Of a DNA stretch of 38,917 bases, positions 11,442 to 33,985 are shown piece after piece. The translations under genes and the position numbers were made by a program. Under the pieces are notes generated by a model. That model worked only from the letters and a program-made list of their open reading frames with translations, was not told the DNA's origin and made no database searches. Source of the stretch: a virus; IMG/VR virus record IMGVR_UViG_3300031918_000072, positions 1-38,917 of that record, one strand, 5' to 3'. Positions within the stretch are counted from its first letter, which is position 1. Every line of letters starts with the position of its first letter.

Positions 11442-13004
11442 ATGGCACTTCAAACTATTCCGGGATTAACTGGTTTTACCTATGCTCGTGTGGCCTCTAT
11501 GGACAAACGTGCTGTAGGGAAACTCACAGATGCAAATCACTTGGAATCATTTCACAGTACAGAACCTGCAGATTATGACAAAAAAATCATAAGCCTGTAT
11601 ACACAAAGTTCTTTGTATAGTAATGATTTCCTTGACATGATTAACAAAAGCACACCTTATTATATAGACAATAATTCGGATGCTTGGAAATGGAAAATTC
11701 AGGTTCCCTACAAATTCCCTAAAATCATTGATATTCCCACAGGACTTGTAGGAACAGTCAATGCAACTAAAATAGGTATTGATGGACAGGAATTCCAGGT
11801 TGTATTAGATACCAATGAATTCTCCAAAAATGCAATTGTATCTGTAGGATCTCGTCAATATGGTCCTCGCTGGTATGTTGTAAAAGATCCTATGCCTTGG
11901 AATGCAGGATGGCTTTATTCATTCACACTTGTTACTGACAATCCTACAGTGGATTTTGTTAGTTCAACATTCTTTCAGGTAGGTATTGAATTAGAATTGG
12001 TTGATGCAGCTATTGGTGAATTTGATGAAGACCTCTTAGGACTTCCTCGCTTGGGTGAAGAGATTGTAATGTTTGAATCTCTTGGTTCAGGATATGGTTT
12101 TGAACATAAAATCACAGCATGGGCAGATGATAAAATGATGAGAGATGCTGCTGGCAGACCTCTTGATATTCTTGTATATGCTCCTCAGCGCAGGAATCAG
12201 CTTCCTCTTACAAGGAATGATATTAAATGGGAACCATTTATTGAATTCTGGATGCGTAAAGCAATGCTTGAGCTGAAGGTGAAAAGGATGATTTGGTCAA
12301 AACCTGGCACTGTTAAAACAAATGGCAGCAAGCAGGAAGTAAAACGTACATCAGCTGGTGTATATCACAGGATGCGTAATAATGGAAACCTTGTACAATA
12401 TAACAGGGGAGAATTCTCAGCTAATCTTCTTCGTTCAGTATTTGGAGATTTATTCTACAGGCGTGTTGATGTAAAAGACCGCCATGTCAAACTCTATACT
12501 AATGAAGCAGGATTTGATGTAGCAGGACAAGCTTTCAAACAGGATGCTTTAAATTCAGGCTTGACATTCATGGCAGATAGTGGAAATCGGTATCTGCAGG
12601 GTGAAGGACAACATATTGTTTACAATTTTGCCTTTGACTCTATAGTAACTCGTGAAACAGGTCAGGTAGAACTTATCCATCTGAAGGAACTAGATCTACC
12701 ACAGAGTAATCTTGAGTTTGGACAGAACAAAAAATCTACACCTGTATTTATGGTATTTGATGTATCACCAATGAGTGATGGATCAATGATCAATAATATG
12801 CGTGAGGTAAGAATGCAGGGAGCTCCTTCAATGACATGGGGATATATAGATGGTCGTAGACACCACTTAGGATTTGCAAAATCACAGGGAATGTCCTCAG
12901 CTACTAAATTCCCAGGATATGAACTCTGGATGCAGGATAGGTGTGATGTATTTATTGAAGACCTTTCCCGTACAGTGTTAATTGAAGAAATGCCACAACT
13001 ATAG
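11442..13004 (+). CDS. Major capsid protein
   Basis: This encodes 520 residues, about the size of crAss-like major capsid proteins, which adopt the HK97 fold. It opens with MALQTIPGLTGFTYARVASMDKR and contains the long central segments (LGEEIVMFESLGSG, EFWMRKAMLELKVKRMIW) and the YLQGEGQHIVYNF region that I associate with this family. The gene follows the scaffold gene, with an A-rich leader (ACTAAAAACAAAA) before ATG and no Shine-Dalgarno. An HNH endonuclease gene follows 2 bases after its stop. No intron is apparent. Confidence 0.88.
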   Translation: MALQTIPGLTGFTYARVASMDKRAVGKLTDANHLESFHSTEPADYDKKIISLYTQSSLYSNDFLDMINKSTPYYIDNNSDAWKWKIQVPYKFPKIIDIPTGLVGTVNATKIGIDGQEFQVVLDTNEFSKNAIVSVGSRQYGPRWYVVKDPMPWNAGWLYSFTLVTDNPTVDFVSSTFFQVGIELELVDAAIGEFDEDLLGLPRLGEEIVMFESLGSGYGFEHKITAWADDKMMRDAAGRPLDILVYAPQRRNQLPLTRNDIKWEPFIEFWMRKAMLELKVKRMIWSKPGTVKTNGSKQEVKRTSAGVYHRMRNNGNLVQYNRGEFSANLLRSVFGDLFYRRVDVKDRHVKLYTNEAGFDVAGQAFKQDALNSGLTFMADSGNRYLQGEGQHIVYNFAFDSIVTRETGQVELIHLKELDLPQSNLEFGQNKKSTPVFMVFDVSPMSDGSMINNMREVRMQGAPSMTWGYIDGRRHHLGFAKSQGMSSATKFPGYELWMQDRCDVFIEDLSRTVLIEEMPQL

Positions 13005-15300: not shown

Positions 15301-16506
15301 ATGGCAGATTTTTCATTGACCACAGTTTTTGTAGTGCCTAGTAGCTTCACTGCTTTAGCTAGTACTGGATCCACACAAAACCTAACACCTGGTCAGCTTG
15401 GTATTTTTGATCCTAATTATGCTGTAGACAATACTCCTGCAGACAAGGCTTATTTCTACATTGCACAAGGAAGGACTAACAATTATCTTGAGGGTAGCAA
15501 ACGCTCAGATAAAATTAAGGGAGCAGGAATACCTTTAACGGGTAATGCTCAAACAGTTTATCCTAATCATTCAAATGTAACAGAATGGTATAAAGTTACA
15601 GGATGTCCTCAATCAACTAATCAAATAGTTGAAATAGATGATTGGCATGCAAAATGTGGTGATGTTATCACTATTACCCTTCGTGCTCACAGTTCCTATA
15701 TTGATACATTATATTTCAATGGTCTTACACGTAGTGTCACTGTTGTAGCTCCTTGCTGTGATTGTGGTGATGATCCTTGTGATGATGTTGATGTTGATGC
15801 ATTGATTGACAATGCTATGGAGCAACTTACAGGATATCATGTATCCTCAGGAGTTATCAATTGGGCAAGTCCTCTTTCAGAATATGGTCCTACAGGTATT
15901 AATCCTGATCATATTATGCTGAATACATTCTTCACATTCTCAAAATCAGGAAGTGGAGCTTCAGCTAAACTGGTTATTACAGGGAAAGCACTTACATCCT
16001 ATGGTGTTCCTTGTGATATTGCAGCCTTCCCATTTGAATATGATAGGATGTGGTTTAGGACATTTGTATATGCAGGACCTGCTACCACTGCTGACTTCAT
16101 TGTAAGTGATGCCTGTAATATTGTTGCTACATCAACTATTACACAAACTTCTAATTATCCTAGTGGAACTTATGCTGAAATCCTTCAGCTGGAAAAGAAC
16201 TACTATAGTTATCAGGTTGGTTTCCTGAAACATCTCTATAGGATGATGGGCTACAACCAGAACTTTGAAAGTTTTGCAGAGCCTGGAGTAAACTACACCA
16301 CTTATTATATCAAGTTCAATGAACTGGATAGGAGTGCTTACAATTGGGGATCTTATGAAACTCAGGATAGTATGGTGATTATTGCTGTACAGACAGGAAG
16401 TGCAATGGCAACAGCTGTTGAGAATGCTCTTGAGGATGCTCTTGGTACTGTTGCTGATAAAAACACATGTATCACTACCACTAGCACAACCACTGCAGGA
16501 ACCTAA
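15301..16506 (+). CDS. Abundant virion protein candidate (auxiliary capsid or tube) with Thr-rich tail
   Basis: This encodes 401 residues. Residues 1-150 are beta-rich. A Cys/Asp-rich hinge (PCCDCGDDPCDDVDVDALID, near residues 150-170) separates them from a second beta-rich domain (FFTFSKSGSGASAKLVITG). The C-terminus ends in a short Thr/Ser tract from residue ~392. It has a long A-rich leader (AAACACAAAACAAA) and is closed by the strongest terminator in the window, suggesting high expression. Its place after the connectors fits an auxiliary capsid or tail-tube-like protein; I cannot decide which from sequence alone. The Thr tail links it to the adhesin cluster. Confidence 0.5.
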   Translation: MADFSLTTVFVVPSSFTALASTGSTQNLTPGQLGIFDPNYAVDNTPADKAYFYIAQGRTNNYLEGSKRSDKIKGAGIPLTGNAQTVYPNHSNVTEWYKVTGCPQSTNQIVEIDDWHAKCGDVITITLRAHSSYIDTLYFNGLTRSVTVVAPCCDCGDDPCDDVDVDALIDNAMEQLTGYHVSSGVINWASPLSEYGPTGINPDHIMLNTFFTFSKSGSGASAKLVITGKALTSYGVPCDIAAFPFEYDRMWFRTFVYAGPATTADFIVSDACNIVATSTITQTSNYPSGTYAEILQLEKNYYSYQVGFLKHLYRMMGYNQNFESFAEPGVNYTTYYIKFNELDRSAYNWGSYETQDSMVIIAVQTGSAMATAVENALEDALGTVADKNTCITTTSTTTAGT

Positions 16507-17281: not shown

Positions 17282-17551
17282 ATGTTAAATCCAAGAATAA
17301 TAGATGGGTGTTCATCATGTGATGATATTCTGACGTTGATTGATGAAATAGATTGCAAGGTAGCTAAGCTATCAGGCAGTTTATATAACAATTTAGTATT
17401 TATGCTGAATAAACCTATTCCTGCAAGTGTCTTTATAGATCTTCTGACATACAAGAGGATATTGCAGTATAAATATGTTAACAGTAATTACGCAAGTGAT
17501 TACACAATTTCTCAGATTTCAAGTAAAATTCATACACTAAAATATAAATAA
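17282..17551 (+). CDS. Conserved small structural protein (89 aa)
   Basis: This encodes 89 residues, predicted helical, with two N-terminal Cys (CSSCD) and the segment LVFMLNKPIPASVFIDLLTYKRILQYKY, a pattern I associate with a conserved small protein next to the 183-residue virion gene in crAss-like phages. It begins one base after the previous stop. Its stop overlaps the next ATG (TAATG). Probably a virion or assembly component; role not known. Confidence 0.55.
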   Translation: MLNPRIIDGCSSCDDILTLIDEIDCKVAKLSGSLYNNLVFMLNKPIPASVFIDLLTYKRILQYKYVNSNYASDYTISQISSKIHTLKYK

Positions 17552-18150
17552 TGGCAAGATCGTTTAAATATCATACTGAGGAAGAAAAAAGAATTGGTAG
17601 AAATCTTATGCAAAGAATGCGAAGGTTAAAGAATGCAGAAAAAGTTAAACAGTATAATAAAGAATGGATCATTAAAAATAAAGAGAGATATGATGCATAC
17701 ATGAAAGAATACAGTATAAAAAAGAGAGAACATAAAAGTATATATAATAAAGAGTGGGTAAAAAATAATAGAGATAAGAAAAGAGAAACTCACAGATTAG
17801 GACAAAGAAGAAGAAGACAAGATGAAACTTATAATTTTTATTGTCATATAAGATCATTTATATTAGCTTCTTTTAAAAGAAACAAAAGAAACATTACTAA
17901 AACTTTAAAGTCTGAAATAATATTAGGATGCACATTAGATAAATTTAGAGTTTATGTTTTATCTAAGTGCCCAGAAGGAACAACATTAAAAGATTTTGGT
18001 AGATATGGTTATCATATAGATCATATTATTCCAATCTCTACTGCAAATACAAAAGAGGAAGTGATAAAATTATGTCATTACACAAATCTGCAACCTCTTT
18101 GGTGTACAGAGAACTTAGCAAAATCAAATAAAATTATAGAATATGTCTAA
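17551..18150 (+). CDS. HNH homing endonuclease with basic coiled N-terminus
   Basis: This encodes 199 residues. The N-terminal ~95 are extremely basic with repeated aromatic-Lys units (YNKEW, YMKEY, YNKEW) that probably bind DNA. The C-terminal HNH core has YHIDHIIP (H155, D157, H158), HYTNLQPLW (N179) and ENLAKSNKI (N188, K191). It is wedged between the 89-residue gene (TAATG junction) and the collar-fibre gene, whose ATG at 18,143 lies inside its last codons. Insertion has therefore kept both neighbours translatable. A mobile selfish gene is the most likely identity. Confidence 0.82.
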   Translation: MARSFKYHTEEEKRIGRNLMQRMRRLKNAEKVKQYNKEWIIKNKERYDAYMKEYSIKKREHKSIYNKEWVKNNRDKKRETHRLGQRRRRQDETYNFYCHIRSFILASFKRNKRNITKTLKSEIILGCTLDKFRVYVLSKCPEGTTLKDFGRYGYHIDHIIPISTANTKEEVIKLCHYTNLQPLWCTENLAKSNKIIEYV

Positions 18151-19259: not shown

Positions 19260-20093
19260 ATGGGAATTGAAGGTCCTTATCCCTGTGAGTGGTATTTCCT
19301 GCCATTAAATCCTGCTTGTAGCACAACTTCTTCTACCAGCACTACTACAACTCTTATCCCTGTAGTTACCTGTCTGAATTACCTAATGTATGTTTATCCG
19401 GATGCTGAACCTGCTACATTAGAATTTGAGAACTGCGATAATACAGAATCCTCTATTATCATTGTATACCCAGGAGTAACAGCTTCCTTCTGTGCAAAGA
19501 TAGGGACAGTACACATAACAGGACATGCACAAATAAGTGTAATAGGAGTATGTCCTACAACAACATCAACAACAAGCACTACATCTTTAACCACTACTAC
19601 ATCAACTACAGGAATTCCTACAACTACAACTACCAGTACAACTGAAGAAGAAATTACAACCACAACAACAACATTATGTTATAGACCAGAAGGGTTAAGT
19701 AATACATACATGCTATATTATTTAAGTGGTGACGATCTTGTACCACCGGGATATCATTTCTTTGGAGATAGTCCTTGGATAGATGTCTGTACATTATGGC
19801 AGGACTTTGTTACAATAGGAGTTATTACTGGACATCAGCTTGGGGCAGGAGCTTTTCCCATACAATATAATATAATAGAAATAGGACAATATATGTATAA
19901 AAACTTTGGATTAATATATCCTAATTCATGTGAGACAATTCAGGATGGAACATATATAGCTTCCTCAACTGTACAAGCAACTGAAATACAAGAGTTAACC
20001 GAAGTAGCAATTGTAACAATAGTGTCAGGATATATTACAAGTATAAATACATGTTATGCACCAACAACTACCACCACTACCACAATTATTTAA
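19260..20093 (+). CDS. Thr-tract modular adhesin-like protein (277 aa)
   Basis: This encodes 277 residues built as short folded modules separated by Thr/Ser tracts: a short N-terminus, tract (codons at 19,320-19,352), a Cys-containing beta domain (TCLNYLMYVYPDAEPATLEF ... HVTGHAQISVIGVC type), tracts at 19,557-19,673 broken by GIP and EEEI, a second domain (YRPEGLSNTYMLYYLSGD ...), and a bare tail of seven Thr followed by two Ile at the stop. The second module resembles one in the 1136-residue protein (VRPARLTTFYLITGYRS). It starts one base after the collar-fibre stop. Probably a virion surface or fibre accessory protein; no enzyme motif. Confidence 0.6.
   Translation: MGIEGPYPCEWYFLPLNPACSTTSSTSTTTTLIPVVTCLNYLMYVYPDAEPATLEFENCDNTESSIIIVYPGVTASFCAKIGTVHITGHAQISVIGVCPTTTSTTSTTSLTTTTSTTGIPTTTTTSTTEEEITTTTTTLCYRPEGLSNTYMLYYLSGDDLVPPGYHFFGDSPWIDVCTLWQDFVTIGVITGHQLGAGAFPIQYNIIEIGQYMYKNFGLIYPNSCETIQDGTYIASSTVQATEIQELTEVAIVTIVSGYITSINTCYAPTTTTTTTII
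19557..19673 (+). repeat. Interrupted Thr-codon tract
   Basis: Thr/Ser codons broken by GIP and by an acidic EEEI. It joins two small domains of the 277-residue adhesin-like protein. A shorter tract lies at 19,320-19,352 and a C-terminal one at 20,064-20,084. Confidence 0.75.
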
Positions 20094-20105: not shown

Positions 20106-20666
20106 ATGATAACCGTACTAATAACATTAACAGTAGCAGGAGCTGATACAGGCCCTACATTTGATTTATTTTCAGATGTGGATGGTTATCTCTCTGCATT
20201 TGAAACAGAGGTTCCTAAGGCTTCTCTGTTAGCAGGATATACAGCTGTTGTAGTTCCTAATGGTACAGAAACAATAAAGATAGTGGCACACAATGGTGTA
20301 TGTCAGCACACATTATCTCTTTCTATTACCACTACTACCACAAGTACAAGTACTTCTACATCTACTTCAACCACAACTTCTACTACCACAGAATATCCTG
20401 GTCCATTTGAATATTATACAGTACAGGGATATATATGTGATGGAGCAACTTGTACAACTAATGGTGATATAGGAAGAATTGCTAATTATCCAATTGGCAC
20501 AGGACTTACAATAGGTAATTTTTATGCTGATACAGAAGCTCATCATATACCTTTCTACATTTTTGAAATACTCTCCATTCCTGTAGATCAAACATCTCCA
20601 GGATGGATAGTTAATTTTGGTAGTGCAGCTGGAACAGCAAGTTGTGATGGTTATTGCAATGCATAA
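20106..20666 (+). CDS. Thr-tract modular adhesin-like protein (186 aa)
   Basis: This encodes 186 residues: an N-terminal beta-sandwich-like domain of ~73 residues (ITVLITLTVAGADTGPTFDLF ... CQHTLSLS), a 21-codon Thr/Ser tract (20,328-20,390) ending in EYPG, and a C-terminal domain of ~90 residues with five Cys (CDGATCTT ... CDGYCNA). The domain-tract-domain plan matches the neighbouring adhesins. The leader AAAACCAACATCCA precedes ATG 20,106. It is the last gene before the terminator at 20,713. Function inferred as surface attachment or decoration. Confidence 0.58.
   Translation: MITVLITLTVAGADTGPTFDLFSDVDGYLSAFETEVPKASLLAGYTAVVVPNGTETIKIVAHNGVCQHTLSLSITTTTTSTSTSTSTSTTTSTTTEYPGPFEYYTVQGYICDGATCTTNGDIGRIANYPIGTGLTIGNFYADTEAHHIPFYIFEILSIPVDQTSPGWIVNFGSAAGTASCDGYCNA
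20328..20390 (+). repeat. Thr/Ser-codon tract
   Basis: 21 codons with a T-S alternating core, ending in EYPG, between the two domains of the 186-residue protein. Confidence 0.75.
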
Positions 20667-23087: not shown

Positions 23088-26000
23088 ATGGCTGAACAGG
23101 AAGAAGGAAACATTAAACAGCATATTGGTACAGCCAATGTTGGTTTGAATATGGATAATAGTCCTTCACAAATGCGTCAAGGACAATGGAGCTATAGTCT
23201 TAATGCTAATGTAGAAAACTTTGATGCTAACACGTTGAGCATTCAAAATGAGGCTGGTAATGAGCCCTGCATTCAAATTCCTGAAGGATTTGTATCAATA
23301 GGAAATCATTTTATCAACGAACAAACCAAATACATATTCTTTATTACTAATCCTTCCTCAGGAGATAGTCAAATAGGATATATGGAGAATAACGATTGTA
23401 TTTTTCATGTTCTAGTTGATGCTGTATGTTTGAATTTCAATATTAATTATCCTATACATAAATGCGTACATAAAATAACCAATTGCAGTACAGAAATATA
23501 TTGGACAGATGGTTATAATCCAAGGAGATATTTGGATATTGATAATATTCCATACACGCTTGAATATGGAAGTCAATTATGTAATCCTGGTTATTCCGCT
23601 AATGTTGATTGCAATCAATTAAAAATACAACCTGATTTCTCTATTCCACAAATAGAAGTTATTGATGTTACCAATACAGGAAATATTATATCAGGAACAT
23701 ACCAATTTGCTGTACAATATTCTGATGCTGCAGCTAATGCTTATACAGCCTATTATTCTGTTACCAATCCTACACCTATTGCTGATATATCTCTTGTTAG
23801 TCCTAATTTCAATACACCTGTAGGAAAGTCAATTGTTATTGATATTACCAACCTGGATATAACAGGACAATTTCAATGGTTTAATATAGCTGTTATAAAA
23901 ACTATCAATGCTATTACCTCTGTAGAATTAATAGGAACCTATTTTATTGACAGAGCTGATAAACAAATTACATATACAGGACAAACTGTAGATAATATTC
24001 GTTTATCAATCAATGATATATTTGAGAAGTTTCCTTATTATGATATAGCACAAGATATTACAGTAGCAAGAGATATTCTTATATGGGATCAATTGAGTTC
24101 TATTGATAGGATAAACTATCAGCAGATATGGAATAAGGTAAAATTGGAATGGGAAACATGGAGAATCCCTGATACAGAAAACTATGCTGATGAACTTAAT
24201 GCTACAAACCTGAGAAGTTATTTAAGGGATGAGGTATATGCTATTGAAGGACAATTCCTCCTGAGGAATGGAAAAGAAACTGATAGTTTTCATATTCCTG
24301 CAAGAGAAATCTCTGTTGGTGAAAGTTTAATGCCAGATGTAGATAATACCAATCCTGATTTTATAGGAGATGGTACAAGTGCCCCATATTGGAAAATATA
24401 TAATACAGCCAGTGTTACAGGGTATTCACCAGGATACTCTCCTTCTCCCACATATAAAGGCCCATATCAATATGGAGAGTTCGCATATTGGGAATCTTTA
24501 GAAGAATATCCCTGCAACACTGATGTATGGGGAGATCTTGCTGGACAGAAGATAAGACATCATAAATTCCCTGATGTACTTGTTAGCCCTATAATGGAGA
24601 CCAAGCTCTTCACTACAGTTGATAACATGGTGATGGGTAATGATGCTGTATTCCCTATAGGTATACGAATAAACACTTCACACATACAATCCCTTATTAA
24701 TTCTTCCAACCTTACACAGGAACAGAAAGATGAAATAATTGGGTTCAAAATATTAAGAGGAGATAGAAATAGTAATAAATCCATTATTGCTAAGGGAATA
24801 CTAAGAAATGTAAATAAATATGAAAAAGAAGGAAATGAATATTATTTTCCTAATTATCCATACAATGATTTAAGAGAAGATCCTTTTCTTAATCAGACTA
24901 ATAATGCATTCTCACAGGAGTGTGAAGCTTTTGAAATAAATATCACAGCACTGAAATATGATAGTATTACTAATAGTACCTATGCTGAAATAGAATATAC
25001 AGATTGTAACACAAATAAGGTAGGCAAGAAGAGATACACATCAATACCTTCAGAATTAGATATTATCTGTTCAATAGTTAAACCTACAATAACTTTTGGT
25101 GAGGGAACAGTAGCTTATCAGAATTATGATACATATGTAATATCATCAGAAGGATTGTGTCCCAAGTGGACAGCTACTTATAATGATAGAACTTATGGTA
25201 TAATAGAAACTGAATGCAGAGGATATTTAGCTCCTGATAGAATACATACTATACAAGTTGTATTGGGAACTGAAGTAAAATGTATAGATAATTGTGAGCC
25301 TGGATTTCCATATGAAGGATGTAAAGCTAATACATCTTTTAGAGGGAGTCACATTATTCCTTCTACATGTACTACTCCTGAATCAATTTCTGCTCCTACA
25401 GATGCATATAGACAAGTATTTAATTCTCCTGAAACATCTTTTGGACAACCATTTCTTGGTAATATACTAAAACTTGAAAGCGTTATATATGGAAAGGGAA
25501 AAGCTCATTTCAAAGAAGTAAAGGATAATGCCAAATATAGACTAGTTACAAAAGAAGCACAAGAAGATGCATTAGATAGTTCTGCTGCACTTGGAGGAAT
25601 GACTAAGGATTTTGATACACAGGCTATGTTTGCTGCTTATCAGGCATATTTGACTATCTATATCAATGGAATTACAAGAAAGAATTATGCTTATTCCTTT
25701 AATTCTATAGCTGACTATAACTATTCCAATGCTGTTCCTAATGATATAGGAGTTAAACAGCGTACTTTAGATGTAGCAAAATATCTAATTCCAGCTGTTG
25801 TTTCAATGGATGGAGATGATGTGAATAATTGGGAGAGGGAATCTTCTGTATATTTAAAGACAATTGGTTCTGATGGTACTATTGATCCTTTACCGTTTCC
25901 TGATAAAAGTCCTCAGATGCTAAATGGATTAAATCCAATTATAGAGGATAAATCTAGGTTTACTATTTCAGAAGCAGGAAATTGTGGAGCTCCTGAAGCA

Positions 26001-27767
26001 CAGGAAGATATTAATGTTGTAAGTTATTATGCTTCCCTAAAGAATATATTTGAGAATCAATGGGGACAGATATATTCCTATACAACTATTGATACGGGAT
26101 TCCAAAGAATATTTACTACATCCTCAGGATATGAAACAGTTTTTGGTGGAGACACATTCATCAGTAGGTTTGCATTTAAAACCAAGCTTCCTTTTTTTAT
26201 TGATAACAGGGTTAAAGCTCCTGATGATAGTGACATATTTTATGATGAAATAGGTAATGTAGCCTATCCAAAATACTGGCATTCCTCAAGAAGTATACTT
26301 GCTGATTATAATGTACCTCCAGGAACATCAAATAGTTCTCCAGGTATACTTACAAACATTATATCATATAAAGCACATAATTTTGATTGCCCTGATAATA
26401 CAGGAGTGATTACAACAGGTACTACAACTACCTATTATGGTACTACTACCACCACAACAACAAGTTTAATCAAGGGAACAGTTACTGAAGGAAATTCAGA
26501 ACGTACATATTATGATGGTTATTTCTACCTATTTGCTTATGGTGTGCCTAGTTTCTATTGTGAGAGTAGTTATAATACAGATCTTCGTCAGGCATTCAAT
26601 AATAGAGAAGGAGATTTTTGGCCCCATGTTACAAATAGCATTCCTGATGATTGGGTGCAGGAGAGTTTTGTAAGTATAGCTAATGATAATACCTATAATT
26701 ATAATACTACCTATTCAAAACAAAATAAGGAAAATTTCTTTAGTCATTTACCTCCTGATTGGAAAAGTAAAATATGCTTTACACAATATCCATTCAGAGC
26801 AATATATTCAGATCCTCAAACAGCAGATAGTGATAACAGGATAAATGCATGGAGAAATTATAAAGCTCTTTCCTATTTTGATTTTCCACAGAATTATGGA
26901 CAACTGTGTTCTTTGGATGGAATAGAGAATAGGGCTATACTTGCAAGGTTTGAGAATAAGACATTAATGTATGATAAACTCCTTACGATTGATACAAGCA
27001 ATCCACAGGCTGCATACATGGGAAACTCAAGATTGTTCTCTGAATCCCCTCCTATTGATTTTGCAGACACAGATTTAGGATATGTAGGTTCACAGAATAA
27101 AATGCTCCTCAAGATACCAAATGGACAAATTAGTGTAGATGCTAAGAGAGGACAGGTGTTTTTAATATCAGGAACACAAGCTACAGATTTATCAGGATTT
27201 GGTTCAGGAATGAATAGGTTCTTTACAGATCATACAGCATTTGAAATCTTGAGATATTTCCCTGAAGCAGATACAGACAATCATTTTAATGGAATAGGCT
27301 TACATGGTGTATATGATAGCAAATATGACAGGATAATATTAACAAAGCTAGATTATGTACCAATAAGGGATGATATAATGTATGATCCTATTACAAAGGA
27401 GTTTTACATAGAAGAAAAGATACCAATAACAATAACAACATGTGACTTAAGTGGCGAAGCTGTGCTTATTACTACTACAACTACATCTTCAACAACATCT
27501 ACAACATCTACTACCACTACAGCAATTCTCACTACTCACTGGGTTGGTTCAGGGGTTTATTGTGTTCCTTTCTATATAGATGAAACGCCTATAGGTAATA
27601 CTGGATATGCAGCCTTTGCTACATTAATAGAAGTATATGATAATACAGGACTTCCTACAGGAAACATTAAGGATAATACAATAGGTGATTCTGATTATAT
27701 TTCTCCTGTATTAGATGTTGAAGCATGTCCTCCATATACTACCACTACCACTACAATAGTAATATAA
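23088..27767 (+). CDS. Giant tail stabilisation/nozzle protein with Thr-tract tail modules
   Basis: This encodes 1559 residues. The N-terminal part (GTANVGLNMDNSPSQMRQGQWSYSLNANVENFDANTLSIQNE) is the start I associate with the P22 gp10/T7 gp12-like tail stabilisation protein of crAss-like phages. These large beta-rich proteins form the distal tube of the short tail. An internal Thr tract lies at 26,412-26,465 (residues ~1109-1126). After a conserved C-terminal core come a Thr/Ser tract (27,471-27,521), a ~70-residue beta module, and a final tract of six Thr followed by IVI. The C-terminal extension therefore carries the same module-linker plan as the downstream adhesins, probably surface-exposed. 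Confidence 0.7.
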   Translation: MAEQEEGNIKQHIGTANVGLNMDNSPSQMRQGQWSYSLNANVENFDANTLSIQNEAGNEPCIQIPEGFVSIGNHFINEQTKYIFFITNPSSGDSQIGYMENNDCIFHVLVDAVCLNFNINYPIHKCVHKITNCSTEIYWTDGYNPRRYLDIDNIPYTLEYGSQLCNPGYSANVDCNQLKIQPDFSIPQIEVIDVTNTGNIISGTYQFAVQYSDAAANAYTAYYSVTNPTPIADISLVSPNFNTPVGKSIVIDITNLDITGQFQWFNIAVIKTINAITSVELIGTYFIDRADKQITYTGQTVDNIRLSINDIFEKFPYYDIAQDITVARDILIWDQLSSIDRINYQQIWNKVKLEWETWRIPDTENYADELNATNLRSYLRDEVYAIEGQFLLRNGKETDSFHIPAREISVGESLMPDVDNTNPDFIGDGTSAPYWKIYNTASVTGYSPGYSPSPTYKGPYQYGEFAYWESLEEYPCNTDVWGDLAGQKIRHHKFPDVLVSPIMETKLFTTVDNMVMGNDAVFPIGIRINTSHIQSLINSSNLTQEQKDEIIGFKILRGDRNSNKSIIAKGILRNVNKYEKEGNEYYFPNYPYNDLREDPFLNQTNNAFSQECEAFEINITALKYDSITNSTYAEIEYTDCNTNKVGKKRYTSIPSELDIICSIVKPTITFGEGTVAYQNYDTYVISSEGLCPKWTATYNDRTYGIIETECRGYLAPDRIHTIQVVLGTEVKCIDNCEPGFPYEGCKANTSFRGSHIIPSTCTTPESISAPTDAYRQVFNSPETSFGQPFLGNILKLESVIYGKGKAHFKEVKDNAKYRLVTKEAQEDALDSSAALGGMTKDFDTQAMFAAYQAYLTIYINGITRKNYAYSFNSIADYNYSNAVPNDIGVKQRTLDVAKYLIPAVVSMDGDDVNNWERESSVYLKTIGSDGTIDPLPFPDKSPQMLNGLNPIIEDKSRFTISEAGNCGAPEAQEDINVVSYYASLKNIFENQWGQIYSYTTIDTGFQRIFTTSSGYETVFGGDTFISRFAFKTKLPFFIDNRVKAPDDSDIFYDEIGNVAYPKYWHSSRSILADYNVPPGTSNSSPGILTNIISYKAHNFDCPDNTGVITTGTTTTYYGTTTTTTTSLIKGTVTEGNSERTYYDGYFYLFAYGVPSFYCESSYNTDLRQAFNNREGDFWPHVTNSIPDDWVQESFVSIANDNTYNYNTTYSKQNKENFFSHLPPDWKSKICFTQYPFRAIYSDPQTADSDNRINAWRNYKALSYFDFPQNYGQLCSLDGIENRAILARFENKTLMYDKLLTIDTSNPQAAYMGNSRLFSESPPIDFADTDLGYVGSQNKMLLKIPNGQISVDAKRGQVFLISGTQATDLSGFGSGMNRFFTDHTAFEILRYFPEADTDNHFNGIGLHGVYDSKYDRIILTKLDYVPIRDDIMYDPITKEFYIEEKIPITITTCDLSGEAVLITTTTTSSTTSTTSTTTTAILTTHWVGSGVYCVPFYIDETPIGNTGYAAFATLIEVYDNTGLPTGNIKDNTIGDSDYISPVLDVEACPPYTTTTTTIVI
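27471..27521 (+). repeat. Thr/Ser-codon tract in nozzle C-terminus
   Basis: 17 Thr/Ser codons joining the conserved tail core to a ~70-residue terminal module, which itself ends in another Thr tract (27,738-27,755) at the C-terminus. Confidence 0.75.
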
Positions 27768-27768
27768 A

Positions 27769-30700
27769 ATGACAGAGCAAACAGAATATATAGTCAGAAA
27801 GGTTATTTCCTTAAAGGATACAGAGTATTTCTGTAACAGATCCTGGACTATATCATTTAATATGAATACAAAGAGCTGGATATCATTCCATAGCTATTTA
27901 CCTAATTGGTATATGGCTGAAAACAACTTTTTCTATTCAGGAATCAATGATTGCTGTGCTGATTTTGATTTTATTGCAGGAACATTAATACCAAATCCAT
28001 CTACCACATCTACAACTAGTACAACATCTACCACATTATTCCCTCCAAGTACCACTACAACAACCTCCACTACTTATTTAATTAATGATTGTACATTAGA
28101 TGGAACAGCAGAGATTGTTCCTACACCTATTACTACCACTACAACATCTACTACTGTATGTGTAAGACCTGCAAGACTTACTACATTTTATTTAATTACT
28201 GGATATAGGTCTATTGATCCTGCGTATACATATATATCAACCTCTTCTGCAGAAGAAGCTTGTTATGCAAGAACATTTGTTACTTCTCACATTAATGATG
28301 AAAATATTGTTCCTACATATATAATAGCAGAAGCATCAAGTTTGGTATTAGGACAGTATATATATCTGTACAATGGAACAACAGATTGTGAATGTGTACC
28401 TGATGGTTGGTATTTTGATAGTGATATTCTTTCCAATCCTGATATTATCCATATAGAGAATTGCATAATAACAGAAACTACAGACTGTTTACCTTCTACA
28501 ACTACAACTACTACCACTGCTACACCAACAACTACAACAACTACTACCACTGGTGAAACTACGACAACTACCACCACTACCCTTGCACCAATAAATTGTG
28601 GAATACAGGTAAATGAAGATTTACAAGAAAGTTACGTGCATACACAAATAGTATTATTAGGTACTGACACAGGAATAACCTATTTCAATTATAATTCATA
28701 CAGTATTCCTGACAGGTTTATTGTTAGATGGGATGGAAATATTGTAATAGATACAGGTTATGTAGGGAATGCTATTTATGATTTTGGAGGAATTAACAGG
28801 GGAGCATTTAATTATGCACTTCTTGGACTTGTTGATCCAATTACCTCTAATACATATCCTGATATTATTACTTATCCTGATGACGGCTACCCAAGAGTCT
28901 CTTCTATATCTATAGGAGCAACAACCTTTGATAAAACAGCAGCAAGTCCTTCAGAGACATATGTAGAAATTTATTCTTCCATTACATCTACAGAATGGAG
29001 TTTTATGTTGAATTGTCCAGGAATTACAACCACTTCTACAACATCAACTACATCTACTACCTCAACTTCTACAAGCACCTCCACTACAACATCAACAACC
29101 ACAGCATTAATATGTACTCTTGAACTTGAAATAATTGATCCTTCTCCAGCTACTACAACTACTACAACTACAACACAATTTCCTGGATTTATAACTACAT
29201 GGAAAACAGATAATTTAAGTATAGGATCGTCTACCGATCATCAAATTAGTTTGCCATTAGTTATTACAGGTACTTATGATTTTATTGTTGATTGGGGGGA
29301 TGGTTCAACAGATCATATAACTGCATGGAATCAAGTTGAAAAAACCCACACCTATTCGGGTATAGGAACATATGCTATTCAAATAAGTGGAGATATATCA
29401 CATATAAGTTTTAACAATACTGGGGATAAACTTAAACTTGTGTCAATAGATCAATGGGGAAATATTGTTTGGGATTCTATGTTTTCCGCATTCTTTGGAT
29501 GTGAAAACATGGTTGCTAATTATACGGATATTCCTAATACGAGCAATGTTACCACAATGTTTCATATGTTTATTGGATGCTCCTTATTCGATGCACCTAT
29601 AAACTTTGATACAAGCAATGTCACAGACATGGGTGGAATGTTCATGTGGTGTACATCATTTAATTCTCCATTAACTATTGATGTAAGTAAAGTAACATCT
29701 ATGTTGGGAATGTTTGATAGCGCAACATCGTTTAATCAAACTATCAATTTCAATACCACATCAGCCTTGCTGATATTAACGAGAACATTCCAAAGTACTG
29801 CACTAAACTCTCCTGTAACATTTAGCGATACCAGTGGTGTTACCGATATGTCAACAATGTTTAATGGATGTACTATATTCAATCAAACTCTGACATTAGA
29901 TACAAGTTCTGTTGTAACTATGAACGCAATGTTTAAAAATTGTCATGCGTTAAATTCAATACTTACATTTAATGATACATCAAAGGTTACAGATTTTGGT
30001 TCGATGTTTTATGGATGTACAATATTTAATAAAGCAATAAATTTTAATACAAGTAGTGCGCTTGATTTTTCATATATGTTTGCTTTATGTAGTACATTTA
30101 ATTCTGTTGTAACATTTAGTGATACAACTAAAGTTACAACTATGGCAGGAATGTTTGATAGCTGTCTTGCACTCAATGAAACAATATCATTTGATTGTTC
30201 ATCAGTATTAGATACAAGTGGTATGTTTAGGTATTGTAGTATGTTAAACTCTGCAATAACACTCATAAATACAAACAATGTTGTCAACATGTCAGCTATG
30301 TTTATGTATGCTACTTCATTTAATCAAGATGTAACATTGGATACATCTGCAGTAACAGATATGAGTACAATGTTTAGAAATTGTATCACTTATAATTCTA
30401 CAATTACATTTAACAATGTATCAAAAGTTACTACATTTTATCAAATGTTATGGGCATGTTCAAACTTCAACAAAGCAATAACATGGAGTGTGAATGCTGC
30501 CCTTGATTTAAGATATATGTTTGCTTTATGTTCTAAATTAAATTCTGCAATTATACTTACAAATACGAATAAAGTAACATCCATGTTAGGAATGTTTAAT
30601 GGATGTAATATATTTAATCAATCGGTTAATTTTGATTGCTCTGCTGTTTTATCATTAAATACAATGTTTACGCAATGTTATAAATTAAACTCTATCATAA

Positions 30701-31179
30701 CATTGACAAATACAAATAAGGTTACAGATTTTAGCAATATGTTTGCTAATTGTATTGCATTTAATCAACCTTTAACTTTAGATACAAGTGCTGCCACAAA
30801 CATGAGTTCTATGTTTACCAATTGCACAGTATTTAATTCTACATTAGCATTTAATGATGTAAGTAAGGTTACAAATATGGGAAGTATGTTTTATTTTGCT
30901 AGAGACTTTGATCAATCTATAGCTGGATTCATTATAATAGCAGTAACTGATATGACAAATATGTTTTATGGTAATACTACATTATCCACTACAAACTATG
31001 ATGCAACATTGATAGCTTGGTCTGAATTAGTTGTACATAATACGGTTTCATTTCATGCTGGAATAGCAAAATATTCAGCAGGAGTAGCTGCAACAGCAAG
31101 AGGAATATTAACAGGAACTTATGGTTGGAATATAATTGATGGAGGAGTACAAACAACAACTACAACCACAACATTATAA
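27769..31179 (+). CDS. Modular adhesin: Thr tracts, PKD-like domain, BspA/DUF285 solenoid
   Basis: This encodes 1136 residues. Order: a ~75-residue N-terminal domain; Thr/Ser tracts alternating with small beta modules up to residue ~470; a PKD-like domain (~480-545; VDWGDGSTD ... HTYSGIGTYAIQISG); then ~20 tandem 24/25-residue repeats (593-1069) with consensus V-T-x-M-x-x-MF-x-x-C-x-x-FN-x-x-I-x-F-D-T-S, the BspA-type/DUF285 solenoid known from bacterial surface proteins; then a closing domain and a tail of seven Thr plus Leu. It begins one base after the nozzle gene and ends at a TAATG junction. Likely a receptor-binding or adhesion fibre. Confidence 0.72.
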   Translation: MTEQTEYIVRKVISLKDTEYFCNRSWTISFNMNTKSWISFHSYLPNWYMAENNFFYSGINDCCADFDFIAGTLIPNPSTTSTTSTTSTTLFPPSTTTTTSTTYLINDCTLDGTAEIVPTPITTTTTSTTVCVRPARLTTFYLITGYRSIDPAYTYISTSSAEEACYARTFVTSHINDENIVPTYIIAEASSLVLGQYIYLYNGTTDCECVPDGWYFDSDILSNPDIIHIENCIITETTDCLPSTTTTTTTATPTTTTTTTTGETTTTTTTTLAPINCGIQVNEDLQESYVHTQIVLLGTDTGITYFNYNSYSIPDRFIVRWDGNIVIDTGYVGNAIYDFGGINRGAFNYALLGLVDPITSNTYPDIITYPDDGYPRVSSISIGATTFDKTAASPSETYVEIYSSITSTEWSFMLNCPGITTTSTTSTTSTTSTSTSTSTTTSTTTALICTLELEIIDPSPATTTTTTTTQFPGFITTWKTDNLSIGSSTDHQISLPLVITGTYDFIVDWGDGSTDHITAWNQVEKTHTYSGIGTYAIQISGDISHISFNNTGDKLKLVSIDQWGNIVWDSMFSAFFGCENMVANYTDIPNTSNVTTMFHMFIGCSLFDAPINFDTSNVTDMGGMFMWCTSFNSPLTIDVSKVTSMLGMFDSATSFNQTINFNTTSALLILTRTFQSTALNSPVTFSDTSGVTDMSTMFNGCTIFNQTLTLDTSSVVTMNAMFKNCHALNSILTFNDTSKVTDFGSMFYGCTIFNKAINFNTSSALDFSYMFALCSTFNSVVTFSDTTKVTTMAGMFDSCLALNETISFDCSSVLDTSGMFRYCSMLNSAITLINTNNVVNMSAMFMYATSFNQDVTLDTSAVTDMSTMFRNCITYNSTITFNNVSKVTTFYQMLWACSNFNKAITWSVNAALDLRYMFALCSKLNSAIILTNTNKVTSMLGMFNGCNIFNQSVNFDCSAVLSLNTMFTQCYKLNSIITLTNTNKVTDFSNMFANCIAFNQPLTLDTSAATNMSSMFTNCTVFNSTLAFNDVSKVTNMGSMFYFARDFDQSIAGFIIIAVTDMTNMFYGNTTLSTTNYDATLIAWSELVVHNTVSFHAGIAKYSAGVAATARGILTGTYGWNIIDGGVQTTTTTTTL
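28000..28155 (+). repeat. Cluster of three short Thr/Ser-codon tracts
   Basis: Tracts at 28,000-28,035, 28,048-28,074 and 28,132-28,155 are separated by LFPP and by a 19-residue segment. They follow the N-terminal domain of the 1136-residue adhesin. Confidence 0.7.
28498..28581 (+). repeat. Thr-codon tract
   Basis: About 28 codons, nearly all Thr, interrupted by ATP and GE. Codons are a mixture of ACA, ACT and ACC with one ACG at 28,561. It separates two folded modules of the 1136-residue protein. Confidence 0.8.
29026..29103 (+). repeat. Thr/Ser-codon tract
   Basis: 26 consecutive Thr/Ser codons (T-T-S pattern) before a short beta module. A second Thr tract at 29,152-29,175 ends in QFPG ahead of the PKD-like domain. 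Confidence 0.8.
29545..30975 (+). repeat. DUF285/BspA-type protein repeat array
   Basis: About 20 tandem repeats of alternating 24 and 25 codons. Odd units carry "KVT-x-M ... MF ... C ... FN ... F-D-T-S"; even units carry "S-A-L-D ... MF-x-x-C ... LNS ... TF-x-D-T-S". DNA identity between units is low enough to need translation to see the repeat, so it is not a recent expansion. CpG is frequent in the first half and scarce in the second. Confidence 0.8.
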
Positions 31180-31388
31180 TGCCTAGTATTACTATAAATA
31201 TAATAGCTGGATATCCTCCCTATATAGTAACTATAGAGCCAGGGGGGACAGTTATTATATTTGATGATGCAGGACTTAAAATAATAAATGATGTACCTGT
31301 AGGAGATTATATAATAACAGTAACAGATAGTATAAATTGTTATGATGATGCTTCTGTCACCCTTACATCAACAACAACAATATTATGA
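31179..31388 (+). CDS. Single SprB-like module with Thr tail (69 aa)
   Basis: This encodes 69 residues: one SprB-repeat-like beta domain (PPYIVTIEPGG ... IINDVPVGDYIITVTDSINCYDDASVTL) plus a short Thr tail ending TTTIL. The "P-Y ... L-x-x-G-x-Y-x-x-x-V-x-D-x-x-x-C" pattern is that of the SprB repeat of Bacteroidota adhesins. The start is a TAATG overlap with the 1136-residue gene, and the stop overlaps the next ATG (ATGA). It looks like a detached module, paralogous to the N-terminus of the next protein, from duplication or a broken fusion. Confidence 0.6.
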   Translation: MPSITINIIAGYPPYIVTIEPGGTVIIFDDAGLKIINDVPVGDYIITVTDSINCYDDASVTLTSTTTIL

Positions 31389-33985
31389 ATGTAACATTTA
31401 ATATAATTGACGGAGTAGCTCCATATGTAGTTTCATTGAACTATGGACTATATGAATATGTCTATCTGACAAGCGGTATTAAAACCATTACAGGACTACC
31501 TGCCGGAGATTATATTATGACTATTGAAGACAGTATTGGATGTATAACCACTGCATCCTTTACTCTATCTGAAGAAACAACAACCACTACTACATCTATA
31601 ACAACACTATCTCCCACTACATCTTCTACAACAACTACATCCACCACAACATTAGCTCCTACAACATCAACAACCACTACAACACATATACCTACAACAT
31701 CTACAACAACATCATCTACATCTTCTTCCACAACATCTACAACTACTAGTATACCAACCACTACCACATCTACTACATTATTACCTACTACATCCACAAC
31801 AACAACATCTTCCATTCCTACAACTACTACCACCACATCTTCTTCTACCACTGCTATACCAACAACAACTACCACTACCTCTAATATACCTACATCAACT
31901 ACCACTTCTTCTACATCAACATCTATTCCTACCACTACAACAACAAGTACAACATCTGTTCCAACTACTACCACTACTACCACTCACTTACCAACAACAA
32001 CTACAACAACTACTATTCAACCTACTACCACATCTACAACATCTACCAGTACAAGCACATCAACCTCTAGCACAACAACAACTACCACAACAGTTGCTCC
32101 TCTTGATTTTGATATAAGCTTCTCCTGTGAAGTTACAATAATTGTATCAGGAAATAATGCAAGAGGAGGAACAGGTGGATATCAATTTGGAACAACAATA
32201 TTTACATCTCAGGCAGCTGCATTAGCAAACACAAATTGGGTAACAACAAGTAATGTTGGTTATAATGTTGGAACAACTAATGGAACCTATTGGATAATAT
32301 TAAGAGATAGTTCAAATGTGAAAAAGACAAAGAGTATTACAACAAATTGTGTAATTACAACTACCACTACAAGTAGTACATCCACAAGCACCACTTCTAC
32401 ATCTACATCAACTACACATCTTCCTACTACAACTACTACAAGTACAACACAAATTCCACCTACAACTACCACCACAACTACACAAACAACAATAGCTCCT
32501 GGTGCTTTATATTACATAGCAACAACAGGGAATGATAGTACAGGAAATGGAACATATGGAAATCCATGGAAAACTCTTTCTTATGCATGTGCCCATGTAA
32601 GTATAGCAGGAAGTACTATTCATGTAAAAGCAGGAATCTATACAGAAACACAACAATGTAATTTAGCAGTAGGAGTAAATATTATTGGTGAAGGAGTGGA
32701 AAATACATTTATACATGGATCATTATCAAACTCATGGACACTATATCTTTATTCATCTTCTGTGACAAATGGAAACCAATCAATATCAAATATTGCTTTC
32801 GATGGTGATCTTACCGGATATGGAGCAATTGGAAGCTATCGTAGGAATAATGTGTTAATTCATGATTGTTCGTTCTCTGATTTTGTTACTATGGGTGTTT
32901 ATTTTGGTAATACTACACCGACAACTTCATTTGCTTCCGGGTGTAAATTTTATAATAATACACTTTCCAATTGCGCTGCATATGATGCTAATGGTTCAAG
33001 GGGAAATTTGAATATTTTTGGGTATTCCGGGTTCTTGTGCTATAATAATACGATGACACTTCCTAAGCGTGGTACTACTCCTGCCGGATTTGGAATTAAA
33101 ACAAATTATACTCAAGGATTGCAGATTTACAATAATACTATTATCATTAATGACAATGATGATGGTGCAGTTTGGTCTTTTGCTGTGGAGTTATGGAATA
33201 CAAGTGATGGGTGTGATATTTACTCAAATACGTTTAGAGGTGCTGTGGATTTTGCAGGGGATTACACCAAAAAGGGAAATTCGTCTTACAGTGTCAGGTT
33301 TAGAAATAATATTGTAGGTCATACTACATTGCAAGCTGTTGCTCGTAAGGGTATTTTGTTAGAATGTGAGGCGGAAACCTTAAGTGATTTTTACATTTAT
33401 GATAATGAGTTCAAAAACTTACAATCTGGAATAAGCATATATACATTAGCAGCTTCAAAATATAACAATATTTATATTTACAGGAATACATTCAATACCA
33501 TTGGAGCGACTATAAACAATTATTGGGGAAACTGTATTAACGGTTCAGGAAATGCGGGATTCACGTTAAATAACCTGTATATATGGAATAATACAATGGT
33601 TTCAAACAGGGGAACGAATTATCTGAGTGCAATCATGCTTAATTGCAGGGGAACGGTAACGAATGTATACATTAAAAATAATATCATAAAAGACTTTGGA
33701 ACCACTTATTTAACATCTAATACAACCGCAGAAGGGACAATTGATAATGTTTACATTCAACACAATGATGTTTATGGGTGTGGGGCAAGCAATGAGCCTG
33801 TTTGGGGTGCAGTAACTCCTACCAATATCACAAAGGATAATATTTTAAAAGTAGATCCTAAACTGGTTTCTACTTCTGATTTTCATTTACAATCAAGTTC
33901 TCCTTGCATAAATGCAGGAGTTGATGTTGGACTACCTTATACTGGAAGTGCACCTGATTTAGGATATGCTGAATACACACCATAA
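31385..33985 (+). CDS. Mucin-like linker adhesin with C-terminal right-handed beta-helix
   Basis: This encodes 866 residues. Residues 1-62 are an SprB-like domain (APYVVSLNYG ... GLPAGDYIMTIEDSIGC). Residues ~65-236 form a Thr/Ser tract punctuated by hydrophobic-Pro pairs. Residues ~238-324 are a second small beta domain. A further tract spans ~325-369. Residues ~375-866 are a right-handed parallel beta-helix beginning YYIATTGNDSTGNGTYGNPWKTLSYA (DUF1565-like) with the usual INAGVDVG closing pattern. Beta-helices of this kind form receptor-binding or polysaccharide-degrading tailspikes. No catalytic triad can be placed from sequence alone. The beta-helix DNA is unusually CpG-rich. Confidence 0.75.
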   Translation: MNVTFNIIDGVAPYVVSLNYGLYEYVYLTSGIKTITGLPAGDYIMTIEDSIGCITTASFTLSEETTTTTTSITTLSPTTSSTTTTSTTTLAPTTSTTTTTHIPTTSTTTSSTSSSTTSTTTSIPTTTTSTTLLPTTSTTTTSSIPTTTTTTSSSTTAIPTTTTTTSNIPTSTTTSSTSTSIPTTTTTSTTSVPTTTTTTTHLPTTTTTTTIQPTTTSTTSTSTSTSTSSTTTTTTTVAPLDFDISFSCEVTIIVSGNNARGGTGGYQFGTTIFTSQAAALANTNWVTTSNVGYNVGTTNGTYWIILRDSSNVKKTKSITTNCVITTTTTSSTSTSTTSTSTSTTHLPTTTTTSTTQIPPTTTTTTTQTTIAPGALYYIATTGNDSTGNGTYGNPWKTLSYACAHVSIAGSTIHVKAGIYTETQQCNLAVGVNIIGEGVENTFIHGSLSNSWTLYLYSSSVTNGNQSISNIAFDGDLTGYGAIGSYRRNNVLIHDCSFSDFVTMGVYFGNTTPTTSFASGCKFYNNTLSNCAAYDANGSRGNLNIFGYSGFLCYNNTMTLPKRGTTPAGFGIKTNYTQGLQIYNNTIIINDNDDGAVWSFAVELWNTSDGCDIYSNTFRGAVDFAGDYTKKGNSSYSVRFRNNIVGHTTLQAVARKGILLECEAETLSDFYIYDNEFKNLQSGISIYTLAASKYNNIYIYRNTFNTIGATINNYWGNCINGSGNAGFTLNNLYIWNNTMVSNRGTNYLSAIMLNCRGTVTNVYIKNNIIKDFGTTYLTSNTTAEGTIDNVYIQHNDVYGCGASNEPVWGAVTPTNITKDNILKVDPKLVSTSDFHLQSSSPCINAGVDVGLPYTGSAPDLGYAEYTP
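31577..32092 (+). repeat. Long PTS (mucin-like) codon tract
   Basis: 172 codons of Thr and Ser broken only by pairs such as LAP, HIP, SIP, LLP, AIP, NIP, SVP, HLP, IQP and VAP, typically every 10-15 residues with longer unpunctuated intervals. Codons ACA, ACT and ACC are mixed without a long uniform microsatellite. Confidence 0.9.
32357..32491 (+). repeat. Second PTS-like codon tract
   Basis: 45 codons of Thr/Ser with HLP and QIPP punctuation, joining the small beta domain to the beta-helix of the 866-residue protein. Confidence 0.85.

Follow-up and report, generated by a model that had tools for sequence, protein, structure and literature searches.

Set-length poly-threonine tags in phage structural modules as candidate acceptors of a phage-encoded virion glycosylation system

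In the structural module of a crAss-like phage, we document a 172-residue threonine/serine tract that links domains of an 866-aa protein and belongs to a broad family of poly-threonine linkers and tags that obey a length rule, are constrained at the peptide level and are genomically linked to a protein family, phrog_4417, with a predicted glycosyltransferase fold. We consider it likely that poly-threonine serves as an acceptor tag for O-glycosylation of the virion by phage-encoded enzymes, a modification that phrog_4417 would start and a variable cassette of nearby enzymes would elongate and cap. Given that such tags lie beside the gene for a predicted sugar-attaching enzyme across unrelated phages, the virus analyzed here probably sugar-coats its own particle.

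The threonine/serine tract and its genomic context

The stretch of DNA analyzed here (the window) is a 38.9-kb fragment that encompasses the structural module of a crAss-like phage: the gene at 11442–13004 encodes the Crassvirus major capsid protein (PF23898, E = 2.7e-21), which assigns the phage to the Crassvirales, and other genes match portal and terminase PHROGs. Judging from the known hosts of Crassvirales, which are Bacteroidota (PMC10172136), the host of this phage is probably a Bacteroidota bacterium. The tract gene is preceded by the muzzle gene, a gene of 1136 aa and one of 69 aa, in this order, and adjacent genes overlap or lie a few bases apart. The features of the window are as follows (T7 and T6 denote runs of seven and six threonines).

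16474–16494, + strand: C-terminal TTTSTTT tag of gene 15301–16506; the tag recurs on orthologues
20064–20084, + strand: C-terminal T7 tag (CYAPTTTTTTTII-stop) of gene 19260–20093
20106–20666, + strand: 186-aa gene with an N-terminal domain of ~74 aa (MITVLITLTVAGADTGP), a Thr/Ser tract (20328–20390) and a variable domain
23088–27767, + strand: homologue of the muzzle (tail-tip) protein, 1559 aa; homology to relatives stops at ~residue 1445, beside an inserted Thr/Ser tract
27471–27521, + strand: Thr/Ser tract inserted at the boundary of the muzzle core
27738–27755, + strand: C-terminal T6 tag (TTTTTTIVI-stop) of the muzzle gene
27769–31179, + strand: 1136-aa protein that starts with the detached terminal part of the muzzle core (EYFCNRSWTISFN...), followed by Thr tracts, a domain common to the muzzles of other phages and DUF285 repeats
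31153–31173, + strand: C-terminal T7 tag (TTTTTTTL-stop) of gene 27769–31179
31179–31388, + strand: 69-aa protein with the same N-terminal domain as the 866-aa gene and a short Thr tag at its end (TSTTTIL-stop); overlaps the following gene by 4 nt
31385–33985, + strand: 866-aa gene bearing the tract (P0001), an ORF
31385–31576, + strand: N-terminal domain of the 866-aa gene, ~64 aa, paralogue of the entire upstream gene 31179–31388 (42% identity, E = 6e-12)
31577–32092, + strand: Thr/Ser tract with xxP punctuation, 172 residues; interdomain linker, predicted O-glycosylation acceptor
32093–32359, + strand: portable domain of ~89 aa that separates the two tracts; in other phages, T7 or Thr-Pro linkers flank its homologues
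32357–32491, + strand: second Thr/Ser tract of the 866-aa protein
32495–33982, + strand: C-terminal head of the 866-aa protein, all-beta in a low-confidence model

The tract is in frame with the ORF and corresponds to residues 65–236 of the 866-aa protein. It consists of 104 Thr, 36 Ser, 12 Pro, 8 Ile, 5 Leu, 2 Ala and 2 His residues and one each of Asn, Val and Gln, such that Thr and Ser account for 140 of the 172 positions against a background of 11% in the remaining genes of the window (binomial P(≥140 of 172) ~1e-101). All 12 prolines occur in the context xxP-T-(T/S), the triplets being LSP, LAP, HIP, SIP, LLP, SIP, AIP, NIP, SIP, SVP, HLP and IQP, with VAP immediately after the end of the tract; the spacing between prolines is 10–21 residues, mostly 10–15. 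An earlier note on this DNA had described a mucin-like Thr/Ser domain with hydrophobic-Pro punctuation, placed between two domains of an adhesin, and the domain, its composition, its punctuation and its position as an interdomain linker are all borne out. The Thr codons of the tract (ACA.56, ACT.27, ACC.17, ACG 0) follow the same usage as the remaining genome, so that the tract is no simple DNA microsatellite. An antisense ORF (31510–31983) is a Val-rich mirror of the tract and need not be a gene.

The domains that the note had placed on either side fared differently. By eye, the N-terminal domain of the 866-aa protein is SprB-like, as had been proposed, but neither this domain nor its paralogue at 31179–31388 matches any Pfam family at E ≤ 1, the SprB repeat model included. 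The proposed beta-helix head is unconfirmed: the C-terminal region has no Pfam match, no PDB sequence match, no relatives in viral contigs and no tblastn match, and the AF2 model built from its single sequence is all-beta with a pLDDT of only 38.8. The complete ORF has no tblastn match either, and no near DNA matches were found in phage records. The protein is a putative adhesin solely by virtue of synteny with the muzzle gene.

At least five other genes in the window (starting at 15301, 19260, 20106, 23088 and 27769) contain Thr/Ser tracts or C-terminal Thr tags, and a weaker tag is found in the gene at 31179. The tagged ends are TTTSTTT-AGT (15301), T7-II (19260), T6-IVI (23088) and T7-L (27769). 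The ~74-aa domain at 20106–20340 (MITVLITLTVAGADTGP), homologues of which precede Thr tracts in 120 fetched loci, is perhaps a virion anchor. Approximately nine DUF285 repeats are located downstream of the Thr tracts in gene 27769–31179.

Set-length tags and modularity in related phages

Most of the 80 related loci that we fetched by homology to the muzzle (a protein so named in csAssE-Sib) contain Thr/Ser tracts, some of them linkers and others C-terminal tags on genes that are unrelated, a frequent form of the tag being C-P-TTTTTTT followed by 0–3 residues and the stop. The pure-Thr runs bounded by residues other than Thr and Ser peak sharply at seven (15 runs of length four, 15 of five, 7 of six, 161 of seven, 37 of eight and 3 of nine). 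A second set of loci, fetched by the C-P-T7 DNA pattern and hence biased by the run selected for, yields 23, 141, 31 and 4 runs of six, seven, eight and nine threonines, respectively, and when the selected runs are excluded, the mode is still seven (67 runs of six, 190 of seven and 27 of eight). Shuffling of residues within tracts gives 38 expected T7 runs compared with 150 observed, and the Pro-to-Pro distance in tracts peaks at 10, that is, T7 plus xxP.

The 254–256 T7 runs are encoded by 214 distinct DNA sequences, and the identity of adjacent codons within the runs is random (540 vs 545 ± 17 in shuffles). The combination of a set length with scrambled synonymous codons points to selection on the peptide; an origin by DNA-level repeats or slippage was rejected on account of this scrambling. 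The reversed pattern, used as a control, is nearly absent. Across 257 Gb of cellular genomes, the CP-T7 pattern has only 87 scattered matches and never takes the C-terminal form, which eliminates a general cellular linker. Thus, what had been presented as one odd domain in one adhesin is a real domain, but the pattern is far wider, a family of short tags of set length that is spread over many virion-module proteins and is accompanied by a dedicated predicted glycosyltransferase.

Near residue 1445 of the muzzle, the relatives have no insert, a Thr tract, a tract with a domain, or a Thr tag where the gene is split. In the window, the next segment of the muzzle (EYFCNRSWTISFN...) opens the following gene; this conserved end of the muzzle core, a single chain with the remainder in most relatives, is cut off and belongs to the next gene, a Thr tag marking the break, at 27769–27990 and in loci L033 and L074. 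The 89-aa domain that follows the tract is also found in other phages, some of which flank it with T7 and others with Thr-Pro linkers; linkers of the TPTNTPTPT type surround it in phages with a second lineage of the enzyme described below (L663, L695). Given that portable domains are bounded by tracts, the tracts at least link swappable parts. Tag-free crAss-like phages were identified as well, namely two relatives (G003, G005) and the isolates Lbo-JY46, phi17:2 and csAssE-Sib. In the open-licence literature, we found no paper on poly-Thr tags in phage virions.

A predicted glycosyltransferase linked to the tags

Large T7-rich records often contain a small GT2 glycosyltransferase of a conserved family (A1), and T7 is present in 25 of the 32 records that carry this family compared with 1 of 28 random records. 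The family is missing, however, from three T7-rich genomes (G007, G010 and G023), which disqualified it as a universal enzyme and led us to phrog_4417. A Pfam scan of 38 proteins of G007 identified GT6 and an FkbM methyltransferase; as universal partners both were rejected, the former being found only in G007 and the latter only in G007, G022 and G024. Comparison of gene neighborhoods revealed a conserved ORF of 338 aa that adjoins Thr-tagged genes in G007 and three other genomes and corresponds to phrog_4417 (PHROGs v4, ‘unknown function’).

Two lineages of this putative glycosyltransferase match phrog_4417 (E = 1e-55 and 4e-70). The AF2 model has a pLDDT of 93.6, and its best PDB matches all have the GT-A fold (glycogenin, Z = 14.3; LgtC, 13.8; GlyE, 12.9; Foldseek E = 6e-7), whereas no Pfam or NCBIfam family is matched at a useful E-value and a supposed likeness to plant hydroxyproline/serine glycosyltransferases found no Pfam support. 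The DxD motif is retained without exception by 32 close and 15 distant members. Given the modeled fold and this motif, we predict with confidence that phrog_4417, whose PHROGs entry assigns no function, is a GT-A glycosyltransferase, with the Thr tag as its putative partner. Enzymes of the GT8/GT6 type (glycogenin, LgtC, GlyE, BoGT6a) share the predicted fold and DxD with phrog_4417 at an identity of only ~10%, and because these nearest structural matches act on varied acceptors, the fold does not prove a protein acceptor.

In 77 of 80 loci fetched by phrog_4417, a T7 run is located on the same strand within 3 kb (median 168 nt), and the 313 T7 matches around these loci are all on the same strand, with none on the opposite one; the 80 loci share descent (≥65% identity), such that nominal p-values overstate their independence. 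Among 28 random phage records, none contains phrog_4417 and one contains T7. All six muzzle-selected T7-positive records of at least 80 kb that were searched (G001, G006, G007, G009, G010, G016) encode phrog_4417 compared with none of the five tag-free phages (Fisher p = 0.002). Searches for phrog_4417 were negative in T7-bearing records G002, G004 and G011 (60–66 kb fragments), G017, G019, G021 and G022. Neither glycosyltransferase family is present within the 38.9-kb window, itself a fragment, and we infer that phrog_4417 is encoded in the missing part of this phage genome.

At one site, the genes that come next vary among tagged crAss-like phages and include GT11 with GT2 and a methyltransferase, a GT32-like enzyme with GT2, GT6 with FkbM, a Fringe-like glycosyltransferase, and GT2 with a MUCI70-like glycosyltransferase. 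In G024 (L333:5764–8620), a Thr-rich gene, GT2 and phrog_4417 succeed one another, a few bases apart. For 44 proteins of the tag-free relative G003, no glycosyltransferase is found among the best 25 of 45 Pfam families.

A second lineage and unrelated cultured phages

Around members of the second phrog_4417 lineage (B; 34% identity), Thr runs peak at six rather than seven (76 vs 30 runs). The linkage in this lineage is looser: a same-strand run of at least five threonines is present in 75 of 80 loci and lies within 3 kb in 39 of 80, and opposite-strand runs occur. Two Thr-rich jumbo phages of 277 and 323 kb (G019, G022; L713, L698–L712) have poly-Thr runs without phrog_4417, and their run lengths show no peak.

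In GenBank phages, phrog_4417 is found in 74 records, mostly from phages of Lactobacillus, Enterococcus, Staphylococcus and Lactococcus but also of Chryseobacterium and Arcanobacterium. Of 12 cultured-phage loci, chosen for diversity before their tails were inspected, 10 satisfy a strict rule for phrog_4417 beside Thr-tagged virion proteins, compared with 1 of 80 random loci. The tagged neighbors are major capsid, tail and other structural proteins: the major tail protein beside phrog_4417 carries poly-Thr in phiFL1A, the major capsid protein of 4995_1 contains T6-KP-T7-QA, PLE3 and Bacchae have T7-VKP and T5STTT-VKP arrays, a head protein of R9.1 contains T7-SHV, and in 1706, SA2, RQ1, TPWB06 and MA9V-3 the neighbor gene has a poly-Thr tract or tail. 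Two cases are indirect, with a Thr array in another frame in Planchet and TT-VKP/VAP repeats in SAC12B. In several unrelated phages, the phrog_4417 gene starts 0–16 nt past the Thr-tagged structural genes.

Proposed mechanism and alternative explanations

We propose that the tract is an extended poly-Thr tag or linker, with seven threonines plus a three-residue xxP spacer as the basic unit, and that such units join swappable domains and cap virion-module proteins at the C-terminus. In the host cytoplasm, during phage assembly, each Thr/Ser block would serve as an O-glycosylation acceptor. The phrog_4417 glycosyltransferase would attach the first sugar, and the variable cassette nearby (GT2, GT11, GT6, GT32-like and Fringe-like glycosyltransferases, methyltransferases) would elongate and cap the glycan. 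A spacer modified in this way would be glycosylated, extended and resistant to proteases, and the phage would carry a variable glycan coat on its outside. The earlier suggestion of possible O-glycosylation thus becomes a prediction with strong genomic evidence from relatives and unrelated cultured phages; the action of the enzyme on the tag, the added sugars and the role as a coat are what we infer from it.

Alternatively, the tracts could be unmodified extended spacers that separate adhesive domains, with the glycosyltransferase in the same module for another reason. The tracts do link portable domains and sit at the boundary of the muzzle core, and some Thr-rich jumbo phages lack phrog_4417, but a spacer explains neither the exact length of seven, nor single C-terminal T7 tags with nothing beyond them, nor the linkage to one glycosyltransferase family in unrelated phages, and we regard this explanation as unlikely. 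The exchange of between-tract domains among phages and the splitting and fusion of genes at tracts would also fit mainly DNA-level devices, that is, repeats that promote recombination and domain swapping among virion genes; given that codons are scrambled to the point where long identical DNA is not kept, and that the length rule is a peptide rule, such devices are highly improbable. That the general O-glycosylation of the host modifies the tract is barely conceivable: the host is probably one of the Bacteroidota, in which this periplasmic system recognizes a D-S/T-hydrophobic motif, but the tract contains no Asp, and hence no such motif, and phage virions assemble in the cytoplasm.

The glycosyltransferases might also modify phage DNA or the host surface rather than the virion, their neighborhood with Thr tags being incidental, and phage enzymes that glycosylate DNA or alter host serotype are indeed known, as cited in PMC12619734. 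However, no member of the thymidylate synthase/hydroxymethylase family was detected in 21 tagged genomes, which counts against the usual route of DNA glucosylation and leaves room for other base modifications, and the immediate succession of tagged structural genes and phrog_4417 in several unrelated phages speaks against an incidental neighborhood; we assign little probability to this alternative.

For virion O-glycosylation on poly-Thr tags, the closest known counterpart is the C-terminal virion glycosylation of mycobacteriophages by phage-encoded glycosyltransferases (Freeman et al. 2023, as cited in PMC12619734). As outlined in that citing text, glycans are attached there to the C-termini of capsid and tail-tube proteins; here, by comparison, the enzyme family is phrog_4417, many proteins bear what appears to be the acceptor, a portable poly-Thr tag of set length, the hosts are Bacteroidota and Firmicutes, and the glycans are predicted. 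Mucin/PTS domains resemble the tract in composition (81% Thr/Ser, 7% Pro), punctuated spacing and linker position, but there is no homology, the phage blocks have a set length of seven and also form single C-terminal tags, and glycosylation of the phage tags would be cytoplasmic.

More broadly, we lean toward the view that set-length poly-Thr tags and phrog_4417 form a widespread portable system of virion glyco-tagging in unrelated phages of Bacteroidota, Firmicutes and Actinobacteria, with a counted acceptor (seven residues in one glycosyltransferase lineage, six in another) and a fast-changing glycosyltransferase/methyltransferase cassette that varies the coat between strains. If so, a phage protein family of unknown function acquires a role, a striking low-complexity motif of environmental phages is explained, and the particles of many phages are coated with variable sugars of their own making, with a bearing on adsorption and immune recognition of phages; a short tag and one enzyme could also become a tool to glycosylate proteins in bacteria.

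Additional observations

In Staphylococcus and Arcanobacterium phages (L732:3640–3930, L739:3100–3440, L737:3160–3430), poly-Thr-Pro forms the end of the major tail protein, at CCC-TAA, and arrays of the T7-VAP type continue in the +1 frame; these sites are likely to direct a programmed +1 frameshift that would put long Thr arrays on some copies of the protein. The capsid gene of Enterococcus phage Planchet (L736:3230–3420) ends near C CCA AAA, with a Thr-rich array in another frame, and a –1 frameshift is likely there. In the window, the region at 17551–18150 resembles an HNH endonuclease by eye (YHIDHIIPIS...LQPLWCTENLAKSNK).
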